NCBI GenBank assembly: GCA_019634975.1
Contig: JAHCAI010000003.1
Location: forward strand, 248,001 to 312,000
Direction of reading: 5' to 3'
Length of the DNA: 64,000 nt
DNA from: Burkholderiales bacterium
Lineage (GTDB): Bacteria > Pseudomonadota > Gammaproteobacteria > Burkholderiales > SG8-41
The translations under genes were made by a program, and so were the position numbers. Position 1 is the first letter of the stretch. Every line of letters starts with the position of its first letter. The notes beneath the pieces are model-generated. The model made no database searches and was not told the origin of the DNA. It saw only the letters and a program-made list of their open reading frames with translations. Shown in pieces: positions 21,035 to 24,456 of the stretch.

Positions 21035-21841
21035 TCAGCCCGGCCGTGCCGCGGTCAGCCCGCCGTCCACGACGAGATGGGTGGCCGTGATGTAGCGTGC
21101 TTCATCGGAGGCGAGGAACAGCACGGCATGCGCAGTATCCCAGGCCTCGCCCATGCGGCCGATCGGCACCGCGGCATGGCGTTTCGCCACGAGGTCCTTT
21201 GCCGCATCCGGCCCGAGCTGCTTCATCAGACGTTCCTCGACCAGCGGCGTATGCATCGTGCCGACGACCACCAGGTTGCAGCGGATGCCCTTTTTGACGT
21301 AGGCGATCGCCGTGGAGCGGGTGAAGCCGAGCAGTCCCGACTTGGCCGTGCTGTAGGCGACGTGCACGCGGCCGTCGACCTGGTGGGCGAAACCGGCGAC
21401 CGAGGAGATGTTGACGATCGCGCCGGCGCCCTGTTTTTCCATGACCGGCAGCACATGCTTGCAGCCGAGGAAGGCGGTCTTCAGGTTATGGTCGAGCTGG
21501 CGGTCCCAGACTTCGACGTCCATGCTCACCGGATCGCCGGGCGCCGAGCCGCCGACGTTGTTGACCAGGATGTCGATGCGGCCGAAGCGCGCGACACAGG
21601 CGTCTGCCGCGGCCTTGACCGCGGCCGAGTCGGTCATGTCGCAGGGGTGGGCGACGAAGCTGCCGCCTTCGGCTTCGATGATTTTCTGCGTTTCCGCCAG
21701 CGCCGCGGGGTTGAGGTCGGTGCCGAACACTTTTGCCCCCTGGCGCGCGAACAGTACTGCGGTGGCCTTGCCGTTGCCCCAGCCGGCGCCGATGCTGCCG
21801 GCGCCGCCGATGAAGGCGATTTTTCCTGTGAGATCCAGCAT
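21035..21841 (-). CDS. short-chain dehydrogenase/reductase (SDR)
   Basis: A 268-residue classical SDR. It has a variant dinucleotide motif, GGAGSIGAGWGNG (13-25), which looks like a GxxxGxG motif with an insertion, followed by NNVGGSA (the NNAG equivalent), the serine of NISSVAGF, and the catalytic YSTAK. The C-terminal ATHLVVDGGLTA is typical of the family. It probably oxidises a secondary alcohol with NAD(P). It is convergent with prpF and lies downstream of the HemP micro-operon on the same strand, 72 bp after it. Confidence 0.9.
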   Translation of the reverse strand: MLDLTGKIAFIGGAGSIGAGWGNGKATAVLFARQGAKVFGTDLNPAALAETQKIIEAEGGSFVAHPCDMTDSAAVKAAADACVARFGRIDILVNNVGGSAPGDPVSMDVEVWDRQLDHNLKTAFLGCKHVLPVMEKQGAGAIVNISSVAGFAHQVDGRVHVAYSTAKSGLLGFTRSTAIAYVKKGIRCNLVVVGTMHTPLVEERLMKQLGPDAAKDLVAKRHAAVPIGRMGEAWDTAHAVLFLASDEARYITATHLVVDGGLTAARPG

Positions 21842-21913: not shown

Positions 21914-22054
21914 TTATGGAATCAGCTGGCGCAGGATTTCCTGCAGCAACTGTTCCCAGCCTAGTGTGCCGTCGATGAGGGCGGACAGCAGCCCGGCGGC
22001 TGTGATGGTCATCATGCTGCCGGCGAGCCCGTCGTTCCGCGGCCTGCCGTTCAT
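21914..22054 (-). CDS. possible 46-residue small protein at the end of the HemP operon
   Basis: An ATG at 22054 opens a 46-residue frame ending at TAA 21914, with a predicted helix MMTITAAGLLSALIDG and an amphipathic end WEQLLQEILRQLIP. It starts 15 bp after the previous small gene on the same strand. There is no strong ribosome site and I recognise no family. Being hydrophobic and in line with the HemP genes, it is plausible but unproven. Confidence 0.4.
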   Translation of the reverse strand: MNGRPRNDGLAGSMMTITAAGLLSALIDGTLGWEQLLQEILRQLIP

Positions 22055-22069
22055 GGTTGCAATTGCAAT

Positions 22070-22300
22070 TCAGTGGCAGTTGCGCGCTGCGGCAGCGGCG
22101 GTCACGGTCGTTGTGTCCGTGCCCTGCGGCAGGTTTTCCAGCGCGCGGCTGAGCGTGTCGCGCAGGTCGTGGAGCACCGCCGGTTTCAGCCGCAGCGAAA
22201 ACGCACCCAGATGCAGGTGCAGGACCTCGCAGTCGCTGCAATATTCGACTTCGGCGACCAGCCCGCGTGCGATCAGACGGCGGTTGTAGGTGGGGGACAT
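22070..22300 (-). CDS. small conserved-looking protein with CxxC, HemP operon
   Basis: A 76-residue protein starting at ATG 22300 (MSPTYNRRL) behind GAAGGA. Its core VEYCSDCEVLHLHLGAF contains a CxxC pair followed by a predicted beta strand and an amphipathic helix (PAVLHDLRDTLSRALENL). The start lies 12 bp past the stop of the upstream small gene. I recognise no named family, although a similar protein beside hemP seems familiar from other betaproteobacteria. The pair of cysteines could bind a metal or heme. Confidence 0.65.
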   Translation of the reverse strand: MSPTYNRRLIARGLVAEVEYCSDCEVLHLHLGAFSLRLKPAVLHDLRDTLSRALENLPQGTDTTTVTAAAAARNCH

Positions 22301-22311
22301 GGCGGCGTCCT

Positions 22312-22545
22312 TCAGTGCGGTCGCATGCAGGCGAGTTCCCGCCATTGCGGCAGCAGCGAATCGGCCAGATCCTGCAGCGCAGGCGCCACCCTGTCACCGC
22401 AGTGCTGCGATAGCCGCGCGAGCCTTGCGGCGAGGGCGCCAGCCAGCACGGGGCAGGGGTGACGCAGGTAGTGGGACATCAGCGCGAGGGCGGTCGCCGT
22501 GTCCTCGGGGCGGTTGCCGGGATTGCGGGGCATTGCGGGAGACAT
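22312..22545 (-). CDS. small protein of the HemP operon, function unknown
   Basis: A 77-residue protein starting at ATG 22545 behind a clear AGGAGT site (a GTG nine bases upstream lies in the site itself). It is mostly helical (TATALALMSHYLRHPCPVLA and LARLSQHCGDRVAPALQDLA). No domain is recognised. It follows hemP by 93 bp and precedes the CxxC protein by 11 bp, which makes a shared transcript under the Fur site likely. Confidence 0.6.
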   Translation of the reverse strand: MSPAMPRNPGNRPEDTATALALMSHYLRHPCPVLAGALAARLARLSQHCGDRVAPALQDLADSLLPQWRELACMRPH

Positions 22546-22638
22546 CAGGGGCACTCCTGTGAAGTTGGGGCTGGCGTTCGGGCAGGAGGACCCGGGGCTG
22601 GCGGTGGAAGGGAAAACAGCGAGGGCGACGCACCCCGT

Positions 22639-22845
22639 TCATTTGGTCAGGATCAGTCCGCCCTTGCTGGTGGCGCGCAGCGTGTAAAACGACCCCTTGT
22701 GCTCGATGCGCAGCAGGCCTTGTTCGCCGAGCAGGCTGGCGCTGCTGATCTCGGGTGTTGCAGATGTGGTGCCTGTCGGGGCGGATGCTGCGGTAGTGGT
22801 GGCGGTGACGGAGGGAGCCGGGGTTCGAGTCGCAGTCTGTTGCAT
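22639..22845 (-). CDS. hemP: HemP, hemin uptake protein
   Basis: A 68-residue protein with a Pro/Thr/Ala-rich N-terminal half and the HemP signature LLGEQGLLRIEHKGSFYTLR, ending GLILTK. In other betaproteobacteria HemP is a Fur-regulated small protein needed for expression of the heme receptor. It starts at ATG 22845 behind GAGGTGAT. A Fur box lies 19 bp upstream. No heme receptor or heme ABC transporter is visible in this window. Confidence 0.85.
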   Translation of the reverse strand: MQQTATRTPAPSVTATTTAASAPTGTTSATPEISSASLLGEQGLLRIEHKGSFYTLRATSKGGLILTK

Positions 22846-22863
22846 CGGGAATCACCTCATAAA

Positions 22864-22878
22864 TGAGAATGATTCTCA
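22864..22878 (-). promoter_or_regulatory. Fur box upstream of hemP
   Basis: TGAGAATGATTCTCA is a perfect 7-1-7 inverted repeat and matches the Fur operator core. It lies 18-33 bp before the hemP start, where it would block transcription under iron-replete conditions. Confidence 0.9.
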
Positions 22879-23025
22879 ATATATATCAGTCATCCGGGCC
22901 GGTCAACTGCCGCTTGCCAGCCTCGATAAAGCTCGCAGTCGTTCAGCGCGATTCACGCCCGCCGGCCTGATGCGCTGCGTTGCCATGGTGATTTGCCTTT
23001 CAGTCGTGGGTGGATATGCGGTGTT

Positions 23026-24456
23026 TCAGATCCGCACCGGTTCGGCGCCGATCGCCGGGCGCAGCATCGCGCTGAGCGGCAGCGTCAGGAAAATGGCGAA
23101 GCCCATCAGGGCGATGGCGCCGGAAACCCCGAAATGGTCTCCGGCGAGTCCGTAGCCGAGGGGGGCGGCAATGCCGCAGACCGAGCCCAGCGTGTAGATC
23201 AGGCCGAAAGCCCGCGGCAGCCGCTCCTGTTCGACGAGGTCACCGGTGGTTGCGTAGAGCACGGAGGATGTGCCCTGCAGCACGATGCCCAGCAGCGGCA
23301 GCAGCAGGAAGCCGGTAATGCCGGGCAGGGCGACCACGCCGAGGATGCCGGCGCCGGTGGCGATTTCGGTGATGACGATGCTGCGGATGATGCCGAGGCG
23401 CTCGGCGAGCAGCCCGCAGGCGAACTTGCCGGCCATGCCGCCGACGAGAATCAGCGGCACCGACAGCGCCGCCCAGCCGGTGGGCAGGCCCTTGTCGATC
23501 ATCAGGAAGCCGACCAGCGTCAGGAAGCCGACCCGCGTGCTGCTGTCGACGATTTCGATCAGGCACAGCGCCGTGAAGCCGCGGCGGTTGCGGATGCCCC
23601 AGCCGCCGCGCCATGCTGTCGAGTTCTCCGCGGGAGCGGCCGCCGGTGCGGCGCGTGGGGCGATCCAGAAAAAAGTCGTGCCGGCGATCAGCATGCCGGC
23701 GATGCCGTAGGCGGCGACCGGGCTCTGCCACGACCAATCCGCCATCAGCAGCAGGCTCAGCAATCCGCCGAAGGCGAACTTGCCGACGTCGCCGAAGAGG
23801 TTGTAGGTGCCCAGCGCCGCGCGGCGGCCGGCTTCCGGATAGGCGTTGGAAATGATGGTCGAACACAGCGGGTGCTGCACTGCCGAGCCGACGCCGGCGA
23901 AGAACAGCGCGACGAGGATCATCCAGAAGCCCGAGGCGAGGCCGAGGGCGGTGAAGGCCGCGCCGGCGATGAAGGTGCCGGCCGCCAGCAGGTTGCGCTC
24001 GCCGAAACGTTCTGCAAGCAGTCCTGCGGGAATCTGGAACGCGGCCATTGCCGTACGGTGGGCGGCGCGGATCATGCCCACCTGCGCCAGCGACAGGCCG
24101 AAGGTCTGCGCCAGCAGCGGCAGCAGCACGTAGGTCAGGTCGGACAGACCGTCGTGCAGTGCATGCGCCGCGCAGCAGGCGCGGAGGGCGCGGCGCGGGG
24201 CTTCCCTGCTCAAGACGCCGGCCTTCCGTGCTTTAAGTTTTTTCTTGAAATGCGCCTTGTCGATGCCGCGCGCTTCGTGGTGGACATGGGCATCGATTTT
24301 CAGGGCCTTGCACAGCGCCGTGATCAGGTGGTCTTTGTTGAGCTGGGTATAGCCCTGCAGCGCCTCGTGCTCGATGCCCTTGGCGATTTCGCGCAGTTCA
24401 GCCACCGTGGAATGCTTCAGCTGGTCGTAAGTCCAGGTTTTCGTCTCTTCAGTCAT
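23026..24456 (-). CDS. MFS transporter with N-terminal Rho_N-like domain
   Basis: A 476-residue protein. Residues 1-85 are a soluble, charged domain: TYDQLKHSTVAELREIAKGI is like the Rho factor N-terminal or SAP fold, followed by DKAHFKKKLKARKA. From about residue 95 a normal 12-helix MFS domain begins, with the loop motif GLLAERFGERNLL and a second copy GLLAERLGIIRS. The start at ATG 24456 is firm because of the ideal AGGAGGAG site in front of it. I know the N-terminal domain mainly as a separate small protein, so this looks like a fusion. The substrate is unknown. Confidence 0.85.
   Translation of the reverse strand: MTEETKTWTYDQLKHSTVAELREIAKGIEHEALQGYTQLNKDHLITALCKALKIDAHVHHEARGIDKAHFKKKLKARKAGVLSREAPRRALRACCAAHALHDGLSDLTYVLLPLLAQTFGLSLAQVGMIRAAHRTAMAAFQIPAGLLAERFGERNLLAAGTFIAGAAFTALGLASGFWMILVALFFAGVGSAVQHPLCSTIISNAYPEAGRRAALGTYNLFGDVGKFAFGGLLSLLLMADWSWQSPVAAYGIAGMLIAGTTFFWIAPRAAPAAAPAENSTAWRGGWGIRNRRGFTALCLIEIVDSSTRVGFLTLVGFLMIDKGLPTGWAALSVPLILVGGMAGKFACGLLAERLGIIRSIVITEIATGAGILGVVALPGITGFLLLPLLGIVLQGTSSVLYATTGDLVEQERLPRAFGLIYTLGSVCGIAAPLGYGLAGDHFGVSGAIALMGFAIFLTLPLSAMLRPAIGAEPVRI

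Follow-up and report, generated by a model that had tools for sequence, protein, structure and literature searches.

The window, a 64,000-nt stretch of DNA from a Burkholderiales bacterium, belongs to a 3.37-Mb draft genome (G000, 95.9% complete) with a single hemP in the whole genome. On the minus strand of the window, a sigma-70-type promoter (TTGACC-17-TATATT, 22878..22906) directly adjoins a Fur box (TGAGAATGATTCTCA, 22864..22878, minus strand) that forms a perfect 7-1-7 inverted repeat. Against the Fur consensus, the Fur box (TGAGAATCATTCTCA) has two mismatches, and two Fur-type sites at ≤3 mismatches are observed in the window versus 0.24 expected. Both elements persist at the ten hemP loci of the genus, where the Fur box is kept in every case as TGA[GT]AATCATTCTCA and the sigma-70-type promoter is likewise kept (10/10). 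A conserved Fur box abutting the promoter is the mark of a Fur-controlled operon, and the layout suggests a Fur-repressed operon, hemP-ORF77-ORF76-ORF46, that would be transcribed under iron starvation.

The first gene, hemP (22639..22845, minus strand), encodes a 68-aa protein of the HemP/HmuP family (PF10636, E 8.6e-14; 51.6 bits against a cut-off of 25). HemP is a known heme-uptake regulator of alpha- and betaproteobacteria. Three small frames follow on the same strand: ORF77 (22312..22545, 77 aa), with a predicted three-helix bundle, a PCP motif and histidine as its last residue; ORF76 (22070..22300, 76 aa), with a CxxC motif at C21/C24 and a Cys-His end; and ORF46 (21914..22054, 46 aa), with a hydrophobic stretch followed by a conserved LIDGTLGWE. 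A short-chain dehydrogenase gene (21035..21841, minus strand; PF13561, E 1.6e-56) lies 72 nt past ORF46 and comes after the small genes at each of the ten genus loci; the gene preceding hemP varies across the genus, being an MFS transporter or a 215-aa protein. In the window this is an MFS transporter (23026–24456, minus strand) whose N-terminal extension has a sub-threshold Rho_N match (17.1 vs 24.9 bits); related MFS frames in genomes G017 and G004 begin later, and the transporter with its Rho_N-like extension is possibly a gene fusion.

Among 21 sampled genomes of the genus, hemP is present in 10 and ORF76 in 7, all within those 10. The order hemP-ORF77-ORF46 is kept in all ten hemP-carrying genomes, and ORF76 is part of it in seven; G004, G010 and G017 have hemP-ORF77-ORF46-dehydrogenase without ORF76. 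Pairwise dN/dS in the tested genus pairs is 0.14–0.53 for hemP, 0.20–0.64 for ORF77, 0.30–0.47 for ORF76 and 0.23–0.35 for ORF46. Judged by sequence, ORF77, ORF76 and ORF46 are real genes under purifying selection, because their order is conserved in the genus and their dN/dS values lie in these ranges. A first-pass annotation of the window had already described a perfect Fur box before hemP with small frames after it, which the positions and the PF10636 match confirm, and had placed on the hemP strand a 77-residue frame and a 76-residue frame with a CxxC pair, the latter present at C21/C24; its 46-residue frame, marked 'perhaps', proves as real as the other two, reading in all ten hemP-carrying genomes with an ambiguous start codon in G006, G007 and G020.

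The absence of ORF76 from three of the ten genus operons, together with its patchy presence in the order (14 of 399 genomes), could also be explained if ORF77, ORF76 and ORF46 were decaying or neutral remnants riding along with hemP. However, the purifying selection seen in dN/dS already disfavors decay, and both the wide conservation of these genes beside iron genes and the conservation of ligand residues described below speak against it, making this explanation very improbable.

ORF46 was encountered in the genus only. Its hydrophobic stretch is moderate (maximum mean hydropathy 1.6–1.9), and the protein may be membrane-bound. In G007 the ORF46 frame (L040:7097-7469) carries near-identical ASRQ-type repeats ahead of the conserved part, which may reflect recent expansion of the repeat or a wrongly assigned start.

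An HPRE-like repeat between hemP and ORF77

The leader between hemP and ORF77 contains a feature absent from the first-pass annotation, a direct repeat GCCAGCC-n20-GCCAGCC (22569..22602, minus strand) that spans nt 57 to 24 ahead of the ORF77 start and has a short predicted hairpin in its spacer. Two GCCAGC boxes are present in this leader in 10/10 genus genomes. Furthermore, in the 160 nt 3′ of hemP at 33 hemP loci outside the genus, 49 boxes lie on the sense strand versus 6 on the opposite strand. A spaced box pair follows 13 of these 33 hemP genes, compared with 0/33 on the antisense strand and 10/603 control genes; a strict pair was not found after the remaining 20. Sorted by the next recognized gene, the pair is present in 4/4 cases before a receptor, 6/19 before ORF77 and 2/4 before TonB (hemP leaders deduplicated, ORF77 matches under 200 nt left out). 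An HPRE before ORF77 as a general rule was dropped, the pair being found in only 3 of 30 ORF77 leaders without an adjacent hemP.

The cited passages of PMC9241770 present the HPRE as a direct repeat found in alpha- and betaproteobacteria, and those of PMC9131926 place published HPREs at 26 and 49 nt before the start and give the Chromobacterium violaceum elements as CCCGCAAGCCAGCCGACAGCCAGCCAGCG (chuR) and GCCAGCCAGACGACGCCGCCG (vbuA, a siderophore receptor). In the genome studied here, a direct GCCAGCC-type repeat lies in the 5′ leader near the start codon at two places, 57–24 nt before ORF77 and 66–38 nt before a receptor gene, a likeness in repeat and position. From this repeat between hemP and ORF77, HemP probably tunes the downstream small genes in cis.

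The repeat-hairpin-repeat could instead represent a small RNA of iron stress, or the precursor of one, released from the hemP mRNA by cleavage in the manner of BrrF of Burkholderia, with the small proteins merely co-transcribed. BrrF, as described in the cited part of PMC7377471, lies at the hemP 3′ end, is co-expressed with hemP and has two conserved 5′ hairpins, and the spacer between the boxes is predicted to form a hairpin at each of the 10 genus loci, its stem sequence varying. However, only 2 of the 10 hairpins exceed 95% of shuffles, and an Rfam search gave no match above cut-off; a c-di-GMP riboswitch match (20.1 vs 59 bits) was taken as chance. RNAalifold on the whole hemP-ORF77 leader gives only −2.0 kcal/mol, and we claim no covarying structure. 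In addition, similar box pairs precede receptor genes, some of them far from hemP, and the pairs resemble the HPREs whose genes, according to the cited text of PMC9131926, respond to ChuP. We consider a small RNA unlikely, while treating it as the main alternative for the leader; an HPRE and a BrrF-like small RNA could both be true at one locus.

Receptor genes and the question of heme uptake

In the genome as a whole, the strict pair occurs 19 times versus 8 for a reversed control pattern. Seventeen of the 19 pairs lie inside open frames, including two (L211 and L218) that scripted gene calls put in intergenic DNA or near a gene start and that inspection places inside longer open frames. The other two lie in leaders, one before ORF77 and one before a siderophore receptor gene on the contig of the window (C14), ~88 kb off. 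The receptor fits best to the FhuA/FoxA group and passes the siderophore-receptor cut-off (310.2 vs 223.5 bits), and its gene belongs to an operon-like series, tonB-exbB-exbD-FTR1-PepSY-receptor, that has a Fur box ahead of tonB. This tonB cluster (G000:C14 ~180.6–187.9 kb, L080) also has Fur boxes together with a bacterioferritin gene on the convergent strand. The genome's three other receptors have a siderophore receptor, ZnuD and PqqU as best models, each below cut-off, and no box pair was found in their leaders.

Across the genus, and with one mismatch per box allowed, receptor leaders with a pair number 7/31 in hemP-positive versus 1/33 in hemP-negative genomes (Fisher p 0.025, a value that overstates independence because the genomes are related). 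Of the 70 receptor matches, 64 entered the comparison; the six omitted were weak or cut by a contig end. G007 and G017 have no receptor with a leader pair in this comparison; the leader of a G004 receptor (L249) has a Fur box and, by eye, two boxes, and stands outside the 7/31 count. We take a siderophore receptor as a likely HemP target because the only other strict leader pair in the genome precedes the FhuA/FoxA-like receptor. HemP probably acts both on this receptor and on the small genes that follow hemP itself, and by analogy with VbuA in Chromobacterium a siderophore receptor likely replaces the heme receptor as HemP target.

As the first-pass annotation had observed, the operon stands in the window without a receptor or heme transport genes. 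Among window ORFs of at least 60 aa, phmmer at E 1e-3 with references drawn from the loci analyzed found no TonB-dependent receptor, FecCD permease, HmuS, HmuT, TonB/ExbBD or FTR1. None of the four receptors of the genome reaches the heme-receptor cut-off (best 146.9 vs 316.85 bits), and by these two measures no heme receptor, HmuTUV or HmuS was found in or near the operon. The neighbors of the genome's one FecCD permease gene look, by eye, like molybdate/tungstate-type transport genes, and a FecCD permease is present in 20 of the 21 genus genomes, with or without hemP.

These results bear on whether HemP still serves heme uptake here, with heme imported by any of the four receptors or by a gene that the 95.9% complete draft does not contain, and with the small proteins acting as heme chaperones. 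ORF77 or ORF76 relatives do adjoin HmuS/HmuT/FecCD genes at L027, L144, L147, L153 and L164, and the window's ORF77 contains a Cys-Pro pair, the form taken by heme regulatory motifs. However, all four receptors score below the heme-receptor cut-offs, the FecCD permease occurs regardless of hemP, the box pair precedes only the FhuA/FoxA-like receptor among those of the genome, and many ORF77 relatives do not have Cys-Pro, for which reason the motif was dropped as a general ORF77 trait. A continuing role in heme uptake is accordingly judged improbable, to about the same degree as a small RNA in the leader.

The ORF76 and ORF77 families

The AlphaFold2 model of ORF76 has four strands and a helix at middling confidence (mean pLDDT 72), with a poorly ordered tail; C21 and C24 fall at or next to the turn linking the second strand to the third. 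The CxxC motif is present in 29 of 48 distinct ORF76 proteins, and 27 of the 29 end in histidine, compared with none of the 19 without CxxC; these 19 are nearly all paralogues of one family, and related sequences are not independent. Specifically, of the 27 proteins with CxxC and terminal histidine, 20 place a cysteine ahead of the first strand but none at the penultimate position, while the other 7, from the genus of the window, have the Cys-His end and no N-terminal cysteine; each of the 27 has one of these two cysteines, never both. A site of three cysteines and one histidine is suggested because the third cysteine shifts its place while the total of ligands stays constant. ORF76 most likely binds metal (iron, zinc or an Fe-S cluster) via the CxxC motif, the third cysteine and the terminal histidine.

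ORF77 is predicted by AlphaFold2 as a three-helix bundle, also at middling confidence (mean pLDDT 74). Its terminal histidine is found in 29 of 60 matches, versus 13 of 622 background proteins, a count that keeps every match, including at least one doubtful one (L040_14628, 46 aa). We infer that ORF77 is most likely a partner of ORF76 or a heme/iron-binding adaptor.

Pfam gave no match for ORF77, ORF76 or ORF46, and no curated family exceeded its cut-off for ORF77 or ORF76. For the latter two, profile searches of solved structures returned nothing below E 0.19, and Foldseek with their models returned no match at E 0.001. Six of 17 ORF76 members match DUF6686 (PF20391) weakly over the CxxC/strand region, the best at 20.4 bits against a 23.9-bit cut-off, and the ORF76 of the window has no match to it. 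The only NCBIfam match of the three proteins, a weak SigX match of ORF76 (E 0.12), was taken as chance. Comparison of ORF76 with PUR repeats gave a Foldseek E of 0.23 (TMq 0.42) and a VIA Z of 3.8 (rmsd 4.7 over 55 aligned residues), a tie with rows for unrelated proteins; resemblances to PUR, PC4, MIT, ferritin and Dps were not used, the VIA rows being below Z 8 and common to unrelated chains.

Both families extend beyond the genus. ORF77 is present in 43 of 399 genomes of the order, in 29 of 158 genera. ORF76 is present in 74 of 150 genomes of one other family, often in two or three copies, and in 2 of 4 genomes of the family of G052; a phylum-wide search for ORF76 found it in 2 of 349 genomes, both from the same order, and the plasmid records searched held no relative of ORF76 or ORF77. 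A Polyangia-labelled contig holds a relative of ORF76 (L107:1365-1742) that converges, tail to tail, on a TonB-dependent-receptor-like gene of the opposite strand, so the ORF76 family may extend into a second phylum.

At many ORF77 loci outside the genus, hemP directly precedes ORF77. Other neighbors of ORF77 and ORF76 include HmuS/HmuT/FecCD, TonB/ExbB/ExbD, receptors, FTR1, bacterioferritin and Fur boxes, and at a few ORF77 matches (e.g. L150, L170 and L173) no iron gene was recognized nearby; locus L095 yielded no gene call. L031, L032 and L034 share the order Fur box, ORF77, rpsD, hemP, ORF76, tonB, exbB, exbD. In these three loci and in L138, L139 and L143, as well as in L028, L029 and L093, the rpsD gene (ribosomal protein S4, ~205 aa) recurs among or next to ORF77, hemP, ORF76 and tonB; it may be an iron-linked S4 paralogue or the normal gene. 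At L033:472-744, a 90-aa protein directly after ORF76 resembles by eye a short Fur-family DNA-binding domain.

The ORF77 and ORF76 families appear to form an iron-response unit able to stand without hemP, because L035 and L036 carry a Fur box-ORF76-ORF77-ORF76 operon alone, with no hemP, tonB or other iron gene recognized nearby, and because iron genes neighbor the families over a wide range. The ORF76 paralogues of these compact operons (L035:5537-6352 and L036:5627-6467) do not have CxxC and terminal histidine and are possibly metal-free family members. The first-pass annotation had proposed a conserved iron-response module and, with it, a search of hemP neighbors on which the module would stand or fall; that search found the frames conserved beside hemP, and iron genes adjoin them in many other genera, which supports the proposal.

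Known hemP systems and the proposed role of the operon

Three described systems resemble the locus in part. According to the cited passages of PMC9131926, C. violaceum has a Fur-box promoter before the HemP/HmuP gene of chuPRSTUV, GCCAGCC repeats in leaders of the ChuP/HPRE regulon and a distant siderophore receptor gene, vbuA, as HemP target; there, however, the genes after chuP encode a heme receptor and heme transport, whereas the locus studied here has ORF77-ORF76-ORF46 only, with no heme receptor found. Burkholderia cenocepacia hemP-brrF shares a Fur-controlled hemP, a conserved RNA region downstream and ftr iron genes nearby, but the cited part of PMC7377471 describes a small RNA and mentions no small protein after hemP. 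The Fur-controlled operon hemP-hemA-smlt0796-smlt0797 of Stenotrophomonas maltophilia likewise has downstream genes of unknown function, but it includes a heme receptor, and HemP is a repressor there, as the cited text of PMC9241770 has it; the same text calls the HPRE absent from gammaproteobacteria. As far as the cited portions go, published HemP mechanisms conflict, with HemP acting as an activator, as a repressor or post-transcriptionally (PMC9131926, PMC9241770, PMC11442138).

On balance, and with somewhat better than even confidence, we favor a Fur-repressed hemP operon encoding two small-protein families with an accessory part in the iron response and a third, genus-only protein, not a heme transporter, with HemP acting via HPRE pairs. 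The genes, promoter, Fur box, repeats at two leaders and ligand pattern are facts at the level of sequence. Upon iron starvation, Fur would leave the box abutting the promoter, and hemP-ORF77-ORF76-ORF46 would be transcribed. We infer that HemP would then work through the paired GCCAGCC boxes in mRNA leaders, binding or stabilizing the leaders that precede ORF77 and the siderophore receptor gene. ORF76 would bind metal, with ORF77 as its partner or as a heme/iron-binding adaptor, and together they would aid TonB-dependent iron uptake, gate it or adjust HemP activity. A more specific version, which we hold to be quite doubtful, is that ORF76 and ORF77 are an iron sensor pair acting after Fur, in which an iron or [2Fe-2S] site of ORF76 (three cysteines and the C-terminal histidine) and ORF77 would switch HemP/HPRE or TonB-dependent uptake in response to the iron level of the cell; if true, this would be a feedback loop below Fur.

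HemP, its control by Fur and the HPRE are already known, as is a siderophore receptor as HemP target in C. violaceum. In the open-licence PMC literature, we found no account of ORF77 or ORF76 or of their terminal histidine, and no HPRE described before non-receptor small genes; the small-protein members of the operon appear to be new. The findings name two conserved, uncharacterized protein families with a testable putative metal site, and the combination of repeat and receptor offers a cheap genome-by-genome predictor of HemP targets. The role of HemP is likely broadened from heme to TonB-dependent iron uptake in general.
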